Shown piece by piece: positions 2,487 through 42,756 of a stretch of DNA of 64,000 nucleotides; positions within the stretch are counted from its first letter, which is position 1, and each line of letters opens with the position of its first letter. This DNA comes from an uncultured Coriobacteriaceae bacterium. GTDB taxonomy: Bacteria; Actinomycetota; Coriobacteriia; Coriobacteriales; Eggerthellaceae. The stretch is from positions 62,001 to 126,000 of the forward strand of contig CACXMZ010000008.1 in NCBI GenBank assembly GCA_902768975.1. Direction: 5' to 3'. The notes under the pieces are model-generated. The model was given only the letters and a program-made list of their open reading frames with translations. It was not told where the DNA came from and did not search any database. The translations under genes and the position numbers were made by a program.

Positions 2487-5186
2487 ATGCAGGAGAAGTC
2501 TATCCAGACAGCGGACGACTTGAAAGTTTCACGTCGTACGTTTGTCACTCTCGCGGGTGCTCTGGGTGCAGGTGCTGCTCTGAGTGCATGTAGCCAAGGA
2601 GGTGGAGCTGCCTCTTCAGCCGCATCTTCTGCCGCTGAAGCAAGTGCATCGGCGGCCGCAGAAGCTTCGAGTAGCGAACCGGCGGCTGAAGCTACTGTTA
2701 CCGTTGAAAGCAATCCGCTCGATTACGACACCATGACCTGGTCGGGTTGTCACGTAAACTGCGGAAGCCGTTGCCCATTGAAGGTGTACGTTAAGGACGG
2801 CACCGTCGTGCGCATCGACAACGACAACGACGGGACTGACGACTTTGGTCCTGGCGGCATCTATCAGATGCGCAGCTGCGTCCGTGGTCGCACCAATCGC
2901 CAGCGTATTTATGCGAATAGCCGTGTGCAGAAGCCGATGAAGCGCGTAGAAGGCACCAAGCGCGGCGAAGGCAAGTACGAGGAAATTTCCTGGGATCAGG
3001 CCATCAGCGAAATTGGCGAAATAATGAAGGGTATCAAGGAAGAATATGGCAACGACGCCTTCTATATCCAGTATGGCACGGGCGTGCTGGGCGGCAGCGT
3101 TTCCATTTCTTGGGCACCTGACAACACCATGTTTGCGCGCTTGATGAATTGCTACGGCGGTTATCTGCGCCACTACTGCGACTATTCCACAGGTCAGATT
3201 ACCTGGGAACTGCCGCTCTTTAATGGCGATGCATGGTCCAACAACGAAGTGACCGACCTCGTTAATTCCAAGAACATCTTCCTATGGGGCAACAACCCAG
3301 CCAATACTCGCATGAGTGGTTCGGCCATGGTGTGGCTCATCACGTGGGTGAAGCTGAACAACCCCAATGCAAAAATTATCGTGGTTGACCCGCAATTGAC
3401 CGACACGGCCGTGGGTGTAGCTACCGAATGGGTGCCCATCCGTCCTGGTACCGACATGGCACTGGTAACGGGCATGATTCATCATCTGTACACGGAAGGC
3501 AAGCTGGACGAAAAGCTTATCCGCGAAAAGTTCATTGGCTTCTATTCCGATACCTTCGAAGAAGATGTGAAGGCGGGTGAACCCACTTCGAGTGCATTCT
3601 TCGGTCTGGACAAGGCGGGCGCATGCACCATCGAAGGCGACCATTCCTATGAAGCCTACCTGAACGGCACCGGTGCTTACGAAGGTACAGGCGAAAAGAC
3701 TCCTGAATGGGCTGCGTCCATCTGCGGCGTTTCTGCCGACAAGATTCGCGAACTCGCTGAACTGTATGTCGATGGTCCTACGGCTTCCATCCAGGGTTGG
3801 GGCCTGCAGCGTCATGCGGCGGGCGGCAACAATACTCGTTCTATTGGTCTTATTGCTGCCATCACGGGTAACGTTGGTATTTCCGGTGGCGGTACGGGTG
3901 CACGCGAAGGCACGGGCGGCGTTCCGTATAGCATTCCCGTTTCTGCTCCGAACTTGGTTGAAAAGAATACCGTCGAACGCGTTATTAGCTTCTTCGACTG
4001 GTATCAAGCCATTGAAGACTACAAGTCCATGAACGATACCACCTGGGGCGTTCGTCATATCGACAATACGGGCGCTATGCGTTTTGCCGAAGAACCGGGC
4101 GAACTGGAACTGAAGGCTCCCATTAAGTTCATCTGGAACTATGGCTCCAATGTCATGGGTGGTCAGCACGGTGACATCAACGACTGCCTGCGTATTTACA
4201 ACCTCCCGGACGAAGCCGATTCTGGTTTGCGCTGCGTCGTAACCCTGGACCCGATGCTTACCCCTACCGCTCTTATGAGCGACTATATCTTGCCTTGCAC
4301 CACCAGTTTTGAAGAAATGGATATCTGCCAGGGTGGTACCGCTTGGACTGGCTTCGCACTGTGCGAAACCCCAGGCATCGATCCGCTGTTCGAATCCAAG
4401 AGCGTCTACGAAGTTTGCTCGCTGCTTTCTAAGGAACTGGGTGTCGAAGAAGACTTCACCGAAGGCCGTACTCAGGAAGATTGGGTTAAGTGGCTTTGGG
4501 AACAGGGCCAGGCTGCTGGCGACAAGACGGGCGCAAGCTTCGAAGAATTCAAAGAGACAGCTCTTTGGAAGCAGACCGACGAACATGAGCCCGGTGTGGC
4601 TGCGCATGATGCTATTGCAACGCCTTCTGGTAAGTACGAAGTGTTCAGCAAGCAGGCCTATAACCTGTCTAAGCAGTGGGACCTCACGAGCGGTGGCTAT
4701 GTGCCTGACGACGGAAAGGACCAGATTACTGGTCTGCCCATCTATTACGTGGCACCCGAAGGCTGGGGCGACGAAGAAGTAAGGGCGGAATATCCCTTCC
4801 AGCTTATTGGTCACCATACCAAGACCCGTACGCATTCCAGCTACGGCAATGTGGACTGGATGAAGAGCGTTGCCCCGCAGCAGCTGTGGATAAACACTCA
4901 AGACGCTGAAAGCTTGGGTATCACTGAAGGCGACGAAGTTATCGTGTCCACCAGGCGCGGCAAGAGCAAGATTCCCGCCAAGGTGACTAACCGTATTATG
5001 CCTGGTGTGGTGAGCCTGCCCCAGGGCGCATGGTACGACCCCGAAACTCGCGAAGCCGACAGGCTTGGCGACAAGGAAGTGCTCGACCGTGGCGGTTGTA
5101 TTGCCGTTCTCACCAGCCAGCGCCCAACGCCTATTTCAAAGGGCAACGGTGTCCATACCAACATGTGCAAAATCGAGAAGGCATAA
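2487..5186 (+). CDS. DMSO reductase-family molybdopterin oxidoreductase, catalytic subunit
   Basis: 899 residues. It begins with a twin-arginine signal (SRRTF at residues 15-19) running into a lipobox-like LSAC (Cys35), followed by an Ala/Ser/Glu-rich linker to about residue 80. The mature part opens with the FeS-binding pattern 'GCHVNCGSRCP' plus a fourth Cys in 'RSCVRGR', the DmsA-type FS0 cluster, and then the bis-MGD fold to the C-terminal 'GVVSLPQGAWYDP' type cofactor domain. 'HYCDYSTGQ' near residue 230 is a plausible Ser Mo ligand. It should reduce an S- or N-oxide or related acceptor outside the membrane. The FeS subunit and TorD gene follow. No NrfD/DmsC-type anchor gene is nearby, so the predicted Tat lipoprotein modification may tether the complex. 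The physiological substrate is unknown. Confidence 0.9.
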   Translation: MQEKSIQTADDLKVSRRTFVTLAGALGAGAALSACSQGGGAASSAASSAAEASASAAAEASSSEPAAEATVTVESNPLDYDTMTWSGCHVNCGSRCPLKVYVKDGTVVRIDNDNDGTDDFGPGGIYQMRSCVRGRTNRQRIYANSRVQKPMKRVEGTKRGEGKYEEISWDQAISEIGEIMKGIKEEYGNDAFYIQYGTGVLGGSVSISWAPDNTMFARLMNCYGGYLRHYCDYSTGQITWELPLFNGDAWSNNEVTDLVNSKNIFLWGNNPANTRMSGSAMVWLITWVKLNNPNAKIIVVDPQLTDTAVGVATEWVPIRPGTDMALVTGMIHHLYTEGKLDEKLIREKFIGFYSDTFEEDVKAGEPTSSAFFGLDKAGACTIEGDHSYEAYLNGTGAYEGTGEKTPEWAASICGVSADKIRELAELYVDGPTASIQGWGLQRHAAGGNNTRSIGLIAAITGNVGISGGGTGAREGTGGVPYSIPVSAPNLVEKNTVERVISFFDWYQAIEDYKSMNDTTWGVRHIDNTGAMRFAEEPGELELKAPIKFIWNYGSNVMGGQHGDINDCLRIYNLPDEADSGLRCVVTLDPMLTPTALMSDYILPCTTSFEEMDICQGGTAWTGFALCETPGIDPLFESKSVYEVCSLLSKELGVEEDFTEGRTQEDWVKWLWEQGQAAGDKTGASFEEFKETALWKQTDEHEPGVAAHDAIATPSGKYEVFSKQAYNLSKQWDLTSGGYVPDDGKDQITGLPIYYVAPEGWGDEEVRAEYPFQLIGHHTKTRTHSSYGNVDWMKSVAPQQLWINTQDAESLGITEGDEVIVSTRRGKSKIPAKVTNRIMPGVVSLPQGAWYDPETREADRLGDKEVLDRGGCIAVLTSQRPTPISKGNGVHTNMCKIEKA

Positions 5187-36969: not shown

Positions 36970-37239
36970 ATGAAGTGCGTAGTTTCAGTTCTGGGTAAAG
37001 ACCAAAGCGGCATCGTGGCGGCCGTTGCCAATGTCATGGCCGACTGCAAGGCCAATATCGACGACATCAGCCAAACGCTTCTGGGCGAACTGTTTAGTAT
37101 GACCATGCTGGTAACGCTTTCGCCCGAAGTCGCCGACTTTAACACCGTGCAGGAACAGCTCACCGAAGTGGGGAAGCGCCTGGGCCTTCAAATTACCATT
37201 CAGCGCCAAGACGTTTTCGACTTCATGTACAACATCTAA
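36970..37239 (+). CDS. ACT-domain protein of the UPF0237 family
   Basis: 89 residues forming an ACT domain, beginning 'CVVSVLGKDQSGIVAAVANVMAD' and continuing 'NIDDISQTLLGELFSMTMLV'. This is the pattern of the UPF0237 proteins, which are small stand-alone ACT domains thought to bind amino acids or similar ligands; in some Gram-positives a homologue (GcvR-like) acts in regulation. No partner gene is adjacent. Downstream lies the candidate small RNA with its own promoter. Confidence 0.88.
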   Translation: MKCVVSVLGKDQSGIVAAVANVMADCKANIDDISQTLLGELFSMTMLVTLSPEVADFNTVQEQLTEVGKRLGLQITIQRQDVFDFMYNI

Positions 37240-37287
37240 AACCAATTCGCTTTTCGCTCCATTAGGAAAGGGTAGTGTCTATTATTC

Positions 37288-37316
37288 TTGACAGAGTATT
37301 ATCCTTTAGCTAGAAT
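37288..37316 (+). promoter_or_regulatory. Strong sigma70-type promoter with no ORF behind it
   Basis: A consensus -35 TTGACA (37288-37293) and -10 TAGAAT (37311-37316) are spaced by exactly 17 bp. This is the best-matching promoter noticed in the window. Nothing protein-coding follows on this strand; an intrinsic terminator lies about 42 bases past the -10. Confidence 0.75.
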
Positions 37317-37321
37317 AATAT

Positions 37322-37386
37322 CACTCCTCTGAAAGCAAAAGCTTTCTCGTCAAGAACACGGCAGCCATCGCTGCCGTTTTCTTTTG
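37322..37386 (+). ncRNA. Candidate small regulatory RNA, about 64 nt
   Basis: Between a consensus promoter and an intrinsic terminator lies a short stretch without any start codon and ribosome site. The predicted RNA starts near 37323. It has a single-stranded C/U-rich 5' segment (CACTCCTCT) complementary to Shine-Dalgarno sequences, a perfect hairpin GAAAGC-AAAA-GCTTTC (37331-37346), a short linker, and an 8-bp terminator hairpin followed by TTTTCTTTT. This is the classic layout of a trans-acting small RNA. It lies between the UPF0237 gene and a gene on the other strand. No known RNA family is recognised. Confidence 0.65.
37358..37386 (+). terminator. Intrinsic terminator of the small RNA
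   Basis: ACGGCAGC (37358-37365) and GCTGCCGT (37370-37377) form an 8-bp stem around a four-base loop (CATC), followed by a T-rich tract reaching 37386. On the other strand the hairpin is followed by a poorer T-tract, so it serves mainly the plus-strand transcript. Confidence 0.85.
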
Positions 37387-37424: not shown

Positions 37425-37889
37425 TTATTGTTGGCCAGCGTGTGGGAGGCCGCGAAGGAGCGCCCATACGGTTTTCTTTCCCGCTTCGCTTTCCAGCAGG
37501 CCGCCAAGATTATTAAACGCGCAGGCGTCGCGTCCAAAAAGACGAAAGCGGCCTTGCGTGGGTACTTCACAGCGAAAGGCTTGGGCCACACATTCGCGTG
37601 CCGCCGTGCCCACCACGACCACGGAAAGTGGGTCAAGCGCTTCAACGATTTCGTAGACGTCTGCTTGCGTAAGCTGGGCACCCTCAGCATTGCGCATGCG
37701 CACGAAGGTAGCCCCTTCATTCCAACCGAGCGCTTCGGCAGACTTTTGCAAAGCTTCAGTTTCGGCCGCGCTCATTTCCGCTTCGGCAAGCACCAAGAAA
37801 AAGGCCGAAGTGGGCCCGGCAAGGTGCGCCCCAAAGCGCGCCACGCAGGCATTGCGCGTAAAGCTGTACATGTTTTCTTCTGGCGTCAT
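37425..37889 (-). CDS. Conserved-looking protein of unknown function, 154 aa
   Basis: The start at 37889 is supported by a TAGGAGT ribosome site directly upstream on the minus strand. The soluble alpha/beta protein has hydrophobic strands 'SAFFLVLAE' and 'LSVVVVGTAARECVAQAF', and 'DVYEIVEALDPL' between them. The strand-helix pattern 'DPLSVVVVGTAA' is reminiscent of uracil-DNA-glycosylase-like folds, but the catalytic motifs are not seen and this is not claimed. It contains four Cys residues. It stands alone and is divergent from the PpiC-type lipoprotein gene. Confidence 0.6.
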   Translation of the reverse strand: MTPEENMYSFTRNACVARFGAHLAGPTSAFFLVLAEAEMSAAETEALQKSAEALGWNEGATFVRMRNAEGAQLTQADVYEIVEALDPLSVVVVGTAARECVAQAFRCEVPTQGRFRLFGRDACAFNNLGGLLESEAGKKTVWALLRGLPHAGQQ

Positions 37890-39425: not shown

Positions 39426-39466
39426 TATAGAACTCGATGCATTTCCAGGACGGGGGCGTAGAAATT

Positions 39467-42286
39467 ATGAAAAGGGTTCTTACGAGTTTCTTCGTATCCA
39501 CTCTGTTGGCGCTAGCGATGGTATCGCTGTTTGCTTTAGAAGCATATGCCCAAACAGGGGTATACACCGGCACGGACATCCTTGGGCAGGGTTCCAATTC
39601 GCCATCTGCCAAGGTTGTTAATTATGGCGGAAGGTCATGGTATGTGGTTGGATATAACGGCACGGGATCGGCAAGCGCACAGGGCGAAATGGTCCTGTTT
39701 ATGAAGGGGATCGAAACAAACGCCCCCTACAATAATAATTTGGATCTAACTTATAAAGGCTGCACACTGCAGACTACCATCGACAATTTCGTCAACGATA
39801 ACTTTTCTGCCGAAGAAAAAGCAGCCATCATCCCCAAGACACTTAAAGGCATGAATGTAGATGCCTACGATGACTGGTGGTGGTATGACAACTTCCATAC
39901 GGTAGATGATGTGCCTTTTGAGGGCGTAACAGTACTGGCCTGGCCCCTCGGCGCAAATGAGGCGCGTACGGTAAATCAAGAACTTCGAAAAGCAGATTAT
40001 GAGTACTGGCTCAGATCTCTCGGCACCGTTGGGTATGTAGATTGGTCTGATTTATTGGAAGTTTCAGACTTAATGGCAATCGTATCGGCCAATGGTGATG
40101 TCGACGTGCAGTGGGATAACGAGAATATCACCTGGTGGAAAGGCGTACGCCTCGGATTTAAGATGAAGATGGACAGCGTATTAATGACTACTCTTACCTC
40201 AACCGGAGAGTATAAGCTGACTTTAAAAGATGAAGCACGTAAGATTTTCTCTGTCGATAACTGTGATAACTCCATAAATGCCAGTGGAGACCTGGTCGTT
40301 AAATATCAAAATGCAGTTGCCGGAGACAACGAATATATCTCTTACATCATCAAAGGTAGTGACGGCAGTATTAAGAGCTATAAGCGCTGCGACAAAGTAT
40401 CGTCAGCTTCCGGAACTGCTACGCTCACCGGGCTTCCCAAGGATGCAAGTGGCAAGATTTCTCTTGGAGCGGGTGACAAACTCTATGTCTTTAACGAACA
40501 AGTAAACGGCGACAAAAAAAGCAACCTTGCATCGGATCTTATCGAACTCAGTACAACACCTGGCCATGATTGGGATTTTTGGTATTTTAACTATCAAAAA
40601 TATGATGGTAAAAAAACTGCGCTTGCGGGCTATAAATGTCAGATAAACCCTATGCACATTCAGTATGTAGAGGCAGAAATAGATACCGGTGGCGTCACGG
40701 CAACATGTGAAGACTATATTGCCGTAAATCAGACAGTTTCTATCAGTGCAGATAAAGCACTTGATGGAATTGCACGACAAACGACTGAAAAAAGTATACT
40801 GATGCCCTTAGGCCACGACTGGGAAGAGCCAACATACGAGTGGTCCGCAGACAACAAGACCGTCACGGCTAAACGCGTCTGTAAACGCGATTCTTCGCAT
40901 ATAGAGACGGAGACCGTATCCACAACAAAGAGCATTACCGAGTGGCCCACCTGCAGTGCGACAGGACTTGCCACTTATACGTCGAATGCCTTTGCAAACA
41001 GCGCCTTTACGGTACAAACGAAGACCGGTGTTGAAGTGCCTGTTGACCCGGAAGCACATGACTGGGATTATGAAAACGCAGAAGAAATTGAGTCTACGGA
41101 TTTCTGTGGTGACAAAGCATTGTTGCTAACATGCACAATCTGTAAAGAAACAAAACTTGAGGCAACAAGTGATGCGCGTCACGAATGGGAAGACGAATGG
41201 ACTGTTTTTTCCGAGCCAACTTGCGAGGAAGATGGCGTTGAGTTTCATGAGTGCAAAAACTGTACTACCTTAGACCTTGAACATCCGCAGCTAATCAAAG
41301 CACATGGTCATGACTGGGGCGAAGGTGAAGTTTCTAAAAAGGCAACCTGTACAGAGGATGGCGTAAAGACATTTACCTGCGCCCATGATGCCAGCCATAT
41401 TAAGACAGAGGTTATCGAAAAAACAGGTCACATAGAGGCAGATCCTGTTCGTGAAAACGTAGCCCCGGCAAGCTGTGAAACAGAAGGAAGCTACGATGAA
41501 GTAGTATATTGCGCCACATGTAACGCTGAGCTAAGCCGTGAGAAAAAGACGGTAGATGCACTTGGCCACGACTGGAGTGAGTGGACCAGAACAAAGGAAC
41601 CTACTTGCACAGAAAGTACTACAGAAGAAAGAGTTTGTTCTCACAATGCCAAGCACAAAGAGAATAGAGTGGTGGACGCCCTGGGTCACGACTGGGGTGA
41701 GTGGGTTGTCACTAAGGAACGCAGCGAAACAGAAGAAGGTATTGAAACCAGAACCTGCAACCACGACAGCAGCCATACCGAAACAAGAACCATTCCTATA
41801 ATCCGACCGAAAGAGATAAGCTATCGCAACACGGAAGGCAACGGCACGCAGTGGACAAAGGGAAGCGGCAAAACAGCGGACTTCACCTTCGTACGGTCGG
41901 ACAGCGACGGCGAGACTTTCTCGCACTTCATAGGCATTCAGGTAGACGGGGTGGATGTCGCCGCTACTAACTACACGGCAGAGCCAGGTAGCGTTATCGT
42001 AAAGCTGAAGCCCGCCTATCTTGAGACACTGTCTGCGGGCGAACATACCCTGACGGCATTATTCGACGATGGAAATAATGTTACCGTGAACTTTAAGGTA
42101 CTCGTTCCTTCACCAGCGTCAGACGATAAGAAATCGAACACTTCGCCAACAGCTGCGCCTACCGCTGCAAAGACCACGGCAAACACAAGTGACAGCACGC
42201 ATGTTGGCGCTTATGTAACTGTGTTGGGCGTGTCACTCATAATGCTTTGCTTGCTTTATGCCACAAGAACACGTAGAAAAGAATAG
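39467..42286 (+). CDS. Surface protein with HDW-type Cys/His-rich repeats
   Basis: 939 residues. The signal peptide is cleaved near AYA/Q (residues 26-29). The N-terminal part (about 40-270) resembles DUF6273-like domains ('RSWYVVGYNG', 'TIDNFVNDNFSAEEKAAII'). From about residue 365 to 790 there are about eight degenerate repeats of 35-45 residues opening with G/A-HDW and holding a pair of Cys and a His-x3-4-His ('CTEDGVKTFTCAHDASHIKTE'), a likely metal-binding or stabilising unit. A beta-sandwich-like domain precedes a C-terminal anchor: 'TANTSDSTHVG', a hydrophobic helix and 'TRTRRKE'. The gene is AT-richer than its neighbours and uses AGA and GAG codons freely, suggesting transfer. It is bounded by a terminator and a tRNA locus. 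Function unknown; adhesion is plausible. Confidence 0.8.
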   Translation: MKRVLTSFFVSTLLALAMVSLFALEAYAQTGVYTGTDILGQGSNSPSAKVVNYGGRSWYVVGYNGTGSASAQGEMVLFMKGIETNAPYNNNLDLTYKGCTLQTTIDNFVNDNFSAEEKAAIIPKTLKGMNVDAYDDWWWYDNFHTVDDVPFEGVTVLAWPLGANEARTVNQELRKADYEYWLRSLGTVGYVDWSDLLEVSDLMAIVSANGDVDVQWDNENITWWKGVRLGFKMKMDSVLMTTLTSTGEYKLTLKDEARKIFSVDNCDNSINASGDLVVKYQNAVAGDNEYISYIIKGSDGSIKSYKRCDKVSSASGTATLTGLPKDASGKISLGAGDKLYVFNEQVNGDKKSNLASDLIELSTTPGHDWDFWYFNYQKYDGKKTALAGYKCQINPMHIQYVEAEIDTGGVTATCEDYIAVNQTVSISADKALDGIARQTTEKSILMPLGHDWEEPTYEWSADNKTVTAKRVCKRDSSHIETETVSTTKSITEWPTCSATGLATYTSNAFANSAFTVQTKTGVEVPVDPEAHDWDYENAEEIESTDFCGDKALLLTCTICKETKLEATSDARHEWEDEWTVFSEPTCEEDGVEFHECKNCTTLDLEHPQLIKAHGHDWGEGEVSKKATCTEDGVKTFTCAHDASHIKTEVIEKTGHIEADPVRENVAPASCETEGSYDEVVYCATCNAELSREKKTVDALGHDWSEWTRTKEPTCTESTTEERVCSHNAKHKENRVVDALGHDWGEWVVTKERSETEEGIETRTCNHDSSHTETRTIPIIRPKEISYRNTEGNGTQWTKGSGKTADFTFVRSDSDGETFSHFIGIQVDGVDVAATNYTAEPGSVIVKLKPAYLETLSAGEHTLTALFDDGNNVTVNFKVLVPSPASDDKKSNTSPTAAPTAAKTTANTSDSTHVGAYVTVLGVSLIMLCLLYATRTRRKE

Positions 42287-42338: not shown

Positions 42339-42431
42339 TGGCGGAGAGATAGGGATTCGAACCCTAGTCACCATTTAACATGGTGAAACGGTTTTCGAGA
42401 CCGCCGCATTCAACCGCTCTGCCATCTCTCC
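42339..42431 (-). tRNA. tRNA-Ser(CGA)
   Basis: A 93-nt serine tRNA with long variable arm, encoded CCA (TGG at 42339-42341 on the plus strand), acceptor GGAGAGA / TCTCTCC, T-loop GGTTCGAATCC, and anticodon loop CTCGAAA, giving anticodon CGA (reads UCG). The complete cloverleaf can be drawn. Confidence 0.93.
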
Positions 42432-42456: not shown

Positions 42457-42518
42457 AAAACAAAGCAGGTCCATGTTTGGACCTGCGAGTCTTTTCTGGC
42501 GGAGAGATGGGGATTCGA
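42457..42518 (-). repeat. 62-bp perfect direct repeat, copy 1 (truncated tRNA-Ser 3' end, att-like)
   Basis: These 62 bases are identical to 42625-42686. They contain a transcription-terminator hairpin and the last 22 or so bases of tRNA-Ser(GGA), including CCA, acceptor strand and part of the T-arm, without the rest of the tRNA. Duplication of a tRNA 3' end is what site-specific integrases leave at attachment sites. Confidence 0.8.
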
Positions 42519-42624: not shown

Positions 42625-42686
42625 AAAACAAAGCAGGTCCATGTTTGGACCTGCGAGTCTTTTCTGGCGGAGAGATGGGGATTCGA
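42625..42686 (-). repeat. 62-bp perfect direct repeat, copy 2 (in intact tRNA-Ser)
   Basis: This copy of the 62-bp repeat includes the terminator and the 3' end of intact tRNA-Ser(GGA). It lies 168 bp from copy 1, so a segment of 106 bp separates the two copies. Confidence 0.8.
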
Positions 42687-42756
42687 ACCCCAGATACCCT
42701 TTTGAGGTATACACGATTTCCAATCGTGCTCCTTCGGCCAGCTCGGACATCTCTCC
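42665..42756 (-). tRNA. tRNA-Ser(GGA)
   Basis: A 92-nt serine tRNA with encoded CCA, acceptor GGAGAGA / TCTCTCC, a long variable arm (TACCTC... GGGTA type), and anticodon loop TTGGAAA, giving anticodon GGA (reads UCC/UCU). Its terminator is the hairpin at 42631-42653. Confidence 0.93.

Follow-up and report, generated by a model that had tools for sequence, protein, structure and literature searches.

A predicted small RNA gene of Eggerthellaceae with an operator common to modA and complementarity to molybdoenzyme ribosome sites

The window, the whole 64,000-nt stretch of DNA analyzed here, contains a conserved autonomous RNA gene. Its operator is common to modA, the gene for molybdate uptake, and complementarity to the RNA is enriched at the ribosome sites of molybdoenzyme genes. 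The RNA is probably an anti-Shine-Dalgarno (anti-SD) sRNA, repressed by molybdate, that would spare molybdenum in Eggerthellaceae. In what follows, G labels denote genomes and L labels denote loci of the analysis; G000 is the genome that holds the window and five others, G001 and G003 among them, are its genus mates.

The gene is situated between an ACT-domain gene (36970–37239, + strand) and a convergent gene (37425–37889, - strand) that encodes a 154-aa protein without a Pfam match. A first-pass annotation had proposed a free-standing sRNA with an anti-SD seed at this location, and the promoter, hairpin and terminator it described are each found where it placed them. The two promoter hexamers are separated by a 17-bp spacer and match the consensus at 11 of 12 positions; this is the sole site of that quality, and thus the best, within the 19 kb scanned. 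The features are as follows.

37281–37302, + strand: operator 1, ATTATTCTTGACAGAGTATTAT, palindromic, includes the -35 box (dyad search)
37288–37293, + strand: -35 hexamer TTGACA (promoter scan)
37298–37319, + strand: operator 2, ATTATCCTTTAGCTAGAATAAT, offset by 17 bp, includes the -10 box (dyad search)
37311–37316, + strand: -10 hexamer TAGAAT (promoter scan)
37322–37386, + strand: predicted sRNA, 64–65 nt (start placed from the promoter and the onset of conservation)
37322–37330, + strand: seed A, unpaired 5' CACUCCUCU, partner AGAGGAGUG (folding, target complementarity)
37331–37346, + strand: internal hairpin GAAAGC-AAAA-GCUUUC (folding, genus alignment)
37344–37351, + strand: seed B, UUCUCGUC, partner GACGAGAA, its first 3 nt inside the hairpin arm (target complementarity)
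37352–37383, + strand: intrinsic terminator hairpin, core stem 37358–37377, T-rich tail to 37386 (folding; the stem covaries)

The core of the terminator is an 8-bp stem, ACGGCAGC-CATC-GCTGCCGT, which folding lengthens by AAGAA/UUCUU to the limits given above. The predicted 64-nt RNA has a delta G of -25.7 kcal/mol (z = -5.6), and none of 200 shuffled sequences is equally stable. No ORF is present on the + strand within the predicted sRNA interval, as the annotation had also concluded. Its statement that no known family is represented agrees with a comparison with the Rfam covariance models at gathering score, where neither the sRNA in the window nor 12 family loci showed a match.

Elsewhere in the window one terminator hairpin, GCAGGTCCAAACATGGACCTGC on the - strand, occurs twice in identical form (42465–42486 and 42633–42654), each copy beside a tRNA gene (42342–42431 and 42668–42756). 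This arrangement suggests a duplicated tRNA-terminator unit. Positions 39437–42286 (+ strand) encode a secreted-looking protein of 949 aa in which cysteine/histidine motifs (C..C ... HDSSH) recur many times and whose only match, to CBM_X2, is weak.

The sRNA block is present in a single copy in its genome. In four of the five genus mates the promoter, the 5' CACUCCUCU, the hairpin, the UCUCGUC linker and the terminator are all kept 3' of the same ACT gene, which implies more than chance; in the fifth, G003 (76% complete), nothing was found at the ACT-gene locus. Across five genomes of the genus CACTCCTCTG, AAGC and GCTTTCTCGTC are invariant and the hairpin loop is variable. The promoter and the seeds are the best conserved parts, the linker UCUCGUC being conserved as well as the 5' seed. 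The terminator stem has been rebuilt among the five genomes, with four pairs altered on both sides and the pairing maintained. Covariation, which the first-pass annotation had suggested looking for in both stems, is thus seen in the terminator stem but not in the internal hairpin, which is nearly invariant in the genus. With the promoter and both hairpins retained in relatives, this comparative evidence supports the proposal of a free-standing, trans-acting sRNA with an anti-SD seed. The operator dyads, a second seed in the linker and the connection to molybdenum described below go beyond that proposal.

When the family, genome contigs and viral contigs were searched for the exact combination of seed and hairpin, matches came from the genus only. 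The compact form is therefore restricted to the genus, and the wider family was reached through a covariance model and the operator. The model, built from five genus sequences, has matches near the ACT gene in other genera of the family (G045, G047 and G050), where CACTCTTCC...AAGC..GCTTTCTCGTCTGG is retained, and in G046 a related RNA is about 2 kb from the ACT gene. Weak matches at L060, L061, L066, L069 and L071 were rejected, as they consist of the terminator only or lie in another context. The promoters of the RNAs found by the model display a clear 22-bp dyad, ATTATTCTTnACnAAGAATAAT, over the -35 box. When up to 3 mismatches are tolerated, this dyad is found in 87 of 138 family genomes and 36 of 48 genera, mostly at one or two sites each, and a reversed-pattern control gave almost no matches; across 299 genomes of the order, an exact operator pattern proved too stringent to be informative beyond the family. 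Most of the dyad matches read are followed by a -10 box and then by a C/U-rich stretch of 60–130 nt with a terminator. Forty-five dyad promoters were examined: an automatic test called a terminator in 43, where some calls could reflect a hairpin further on, a C/U run of anti-SD type is present in 43, and CTCGTC (CUCGUC in the RNA) in 35. The operator was what led to these promoters; the terminator and CTCGTC are independent of it. The loop CCUCCCCC is present in many terminators of these RNAs. These RNAs therefore make up a larger family of C-rich sRNAs, among which the window RNA is a short one. Some genomes carry two copies with different seeds, i.e., L126 and L127, about 10 kb apart in G034, L149 and L150 in G087, and L138 and L139 in G065.

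In the window the sRNA promoter is overlain by two overlapping dyads, with the -35 box under the first and the -10 box under the second, and this placement suggests that the control is repression. Where dyad matches are not at sRNAs, the next gene encodes a ModA-like protein in G019 and G077, and the dyad is directly upstream of modA in G000, G019, G077, G084 and G103. The modA promoter of G000 has TATATCCTCAAACGAGAATATA, overlapped by AATATACTTGAATAAGTACTAT, shortly 5' of the ATG. At 45 of 51 modA loci the top site of the 450-bp upstream region scores above all the flanking DNA; shuffle p values for these sites are optimistic because promoters are AT-rich. Tandem dyads 16–17 bp apart are found in the sRNA promoters of G000, G001, G002 and G004 and in the modA promoters of G000, G084 and G103. 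The co-occurrence of operator and modA across genomes is suggestive only, there being just four good genomes that lack modA. An iron (Fur-type) operator was the first idea and was given up once the dyad matches fell on modA. Since its operators are common to modA, the sRNA should be silenced by a molybdate-responsive repressor when molybdate is plentiful.

The dyad is also found near molybdate-regulator genes, some molybdoenzyme genes and a few unrelated genes. It precedes a formate dehydrogenase and molybdopterin oxidoreductases (L249, L255, L266); with some molybdoenzyme genes thus carrying the operator themselves, the control is not a simple split. At L260 (G045:C1:228565) the dyad is right at a gene for a FecCD-type ABC permease, possibly an alternative importer of molybdate or tungstate.

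Another gene preceded by the dyad, L253, encodes an HTH_17-PBP_like protein, with an HTH at 9–57 aa and a periplasmic-binding-type domain. Such proteins (PF12727) have the same operator or an sRNA neighbor in several genera (further instances are L157, G007:C1:482577-483269 and G011:C33:3485-4171) and are candidate one-component molybdate sensors. In G127 the regulator gene and a mop-modA operon are divergently oriented, with dyads in the region between the two, and in G128 a predicted sRNA-like transcript, identified by eye, occupies the place divergent from mop-modA. In G007 and G011 the sRNA adjoins a PBP_like regulator gene. G000 itself has no HTH_17-PBP_like match, and this protein is thereby ruled out as the universal regulator. 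A ModE-like HTH is present in all 26 genomes tested, G000 included, in each case below the TIGR00637 cut-off and as a single-domain protein. The presence of this HTH and the absence of an HTH_17-PBP_like match make a ModE-type winged-helix protein the most likely predicted regulator of the sRNA in G000. The G000 protein shows a DNA-binding domain only (Pfam HTH_1), so that molybdate would have to be sensed through a partner.

The starts of molybdoenzyme genes in five genus genomes have a recurrent CAGAGGAG, complementary to the 5' end of the sRNA, and a recurrent GACGAGAAGGAG or GACGAGAG, complementary to the linker. For G000 the test set consisted of genes called with automatic start choice in 464 kb, i.e., the window and 20 further stretches, four of which were picked because they hold molybdoenzymes. 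With the G000 seeds, matches of at least 7 nt (a threshold fixed after a first look at the data) are found at 4 of 7 molybdoenzymes and at 17 of 365 other genes, or 21 of 372 in total (p = 2.4e-4). The longest match among the 372 genes (10 nt, -18 kcal/mol) is to a molybdoenzyme. The remaining three molybdoenzymes have no strong match, and that of the window, a molybdopterin oxidoreductase of 899 aa (2487–5186, + strand, end approximate), is one of these; in its start region, caaagaaggagggaaaaATG, the match to the sRNA is limited to the core AGGAG. With the genus consensus linker and the same 7-nt minimum, 20 of 27 molybdoenzyme starts from the five genomes match, compared with 13 of 365 other genes; the starts in genus mates were selected by eye among candidates with an SD, and the orthologues do not count as independent. 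The samples from other genera are small, and replication there is weak: 2 of 3 molybdoenzymes match in G045 (p = 0.015) and 1 of 2 in G051 (p = 0.19). In three genera, 2 of 12 molybdoenzymes and 1 of 966 other genes have GACGAGA upstream. The single other gene, L379_12829, resembles aldehyde ferredoxin oxidoreductase by sequence, and aldehyde ferredoxin oxidoreductase is a tungsten/molybdenum enzyme.

The sRNA could be real and its operator belong to another regulator, e.g., one for global anaerobic respiration or oxyanions, with modA merely included and anaerobic respiration tuned in general. The molybdoenzyme and unrelated genes under the operator would fit this explanation, as would the good seed matches at a DmsB-like operon partner (L345_11321) and a hydrogenase small subunit (L340_16122). 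The dyad is also unlike classical ModE boxes. The proteobacterial ModE site is ATCGNTATATA-N6-TATATANCGAT, and a single-domain ModE with a divergent site has been predicted in Desulfovibrio (PMC545781). In Eggerthellaceae a dyad is likewise upstream of modA, but it has the form ATTATTCTT-N4-AAGAATAAT and is in tandem at 16–17 bp in several promoters; it does not match the classical E. coli consensus (PMC545781) and is not claimed to be of that class. However, modA and the HTH_17-PBP_like gene have the operator in its strongest and most regular form, a pointer to molybdate sensing, and a different regulator is considered unlikely.

Complementarity to SD regions would also be expected of a constitutive or stress-type C-rich sRNA directed at any AGGAG site, the molybdoenzyme signal then reflecting strong SDs only. 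The anti-SD core is indeed within seed A, and the SDs of molybdoenzymes are stronger than average. The enrichment nevertheless holds among strong-SD genes, where 5 of 71 non-molybdoenzymes match compared with 20 of 27 molybdoenzymes, and the SD-matched test in G000 gives p = 7.6e-4. Seeds shuffled with their composition preserved fail as well: 1.3 of the 27 molybdoenzyme starts are expected to match, and no shuffle of 2000 reaches 20. Seed B (GACGAG in the target) falls outside the SD core. A general anti-SD RNA is thus quite improbable. It is more improbable still that the block simply belongs to the ACT-domain gene, as its 3' UTR and terminator, and that the promoter is there by chance. In G000 no other strong terminator is listed between the ACT stop codon (37239) and the hairpin, so read-through transcripts may end there. 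In G001, however, the ACT gene ends at a terminator of its own with the sRNA promoter more than 100 bp further on, which makes the sRNA an independent unit; in G047 and G050 the sRNA and the ACT gene are on opposite strands, in other genera the sRNA is elsewhere, and it is the promoter and seeds that are best conserved.

The mechanism proposed for the molybdate-repressed sRNA is the following. With plentiful molybdate, a molybdate-responsive repressor on the tandem operators would silence the sigma-70-type sRNA promoter. When molybdate is scarce, repression would be lifted and the 64-nt RNA would be made along with the transporter. The 5' CACUCCUCU and the linker UUCUCGUC would then pair with the SD regions of molybdopterin-oxidoreductase mRNAs; such pairing would block translation of the molybdoenzymes and save molybdenum and its cofactor. 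On present sequence evidence it is fairly likely that this applies family-wide, with a molybdate-type operator and two seeds that would repress molybdoenzymes, possibly including catechol- or drug-transforming reductases.

Iron-sparing sRNAs are known from many bacteria. FsrA of B. subtilis and RyhB of E. coli are under a metal-responsive repressor, are made in starvation and lower the translation of metal enzymes. The logic proposed here is similar, but the Eggerthellaceae sRNA has no Rfam match and its metal would be molybdenum. IsrR of staphylococci is a Fur-repressed iron-sparing sRNA of 174 nt (PMC9410917). Both RNAs have a promoter with a pair of repressor boxes, single-stranded segments rich in C and a poorly conserved terminator sequence, and the lowered translation of scarce-metal enzymes found with IsrR (PMC9410917) is what is proposed in Eggerthellaceae. 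In contrast to IsrR, the Eggerthellaceae sRNA is about 64 nt, is from Actinomycetota, has an operator common to modA and no Fur box, has molybdoenzymes as predicted targets, and has a second seed, UCUCGUC, beyond the SD core. By analogy it may work like IsrR, yet no known RNA family includes it. HrrF of Haemophilus influenzae is a Fur-regulated sRNA that lowers modABC (PMC4144887) and is thus likewise an sRNA under metal control with a connection to molybdate genes, as proposed here; the Eggerthellaceae sRNA differs in that its operator is common to modA and its predicted targets are enzymes. A search of the open-access literature turned up no sRNA that belongs to a ModE regulon, is controlled by a molybdate-type operator or spares molybdenum; nor was a paper describing an sRNA in Eggerthella found.

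Eggerthella and its relatives transform dopamine and dietary catechols by means of molybdoenzymes, and tungstate blocks these reactions (PMC7028382). With genetic tools now available for E. lenta (PMC9734109), the molybdenum-sparing idea is open to test. If it is true, a layer of RNA control over molybdoenzymes would tie the supply of a trace metal to the metabolism of drugs and diet in the gut.
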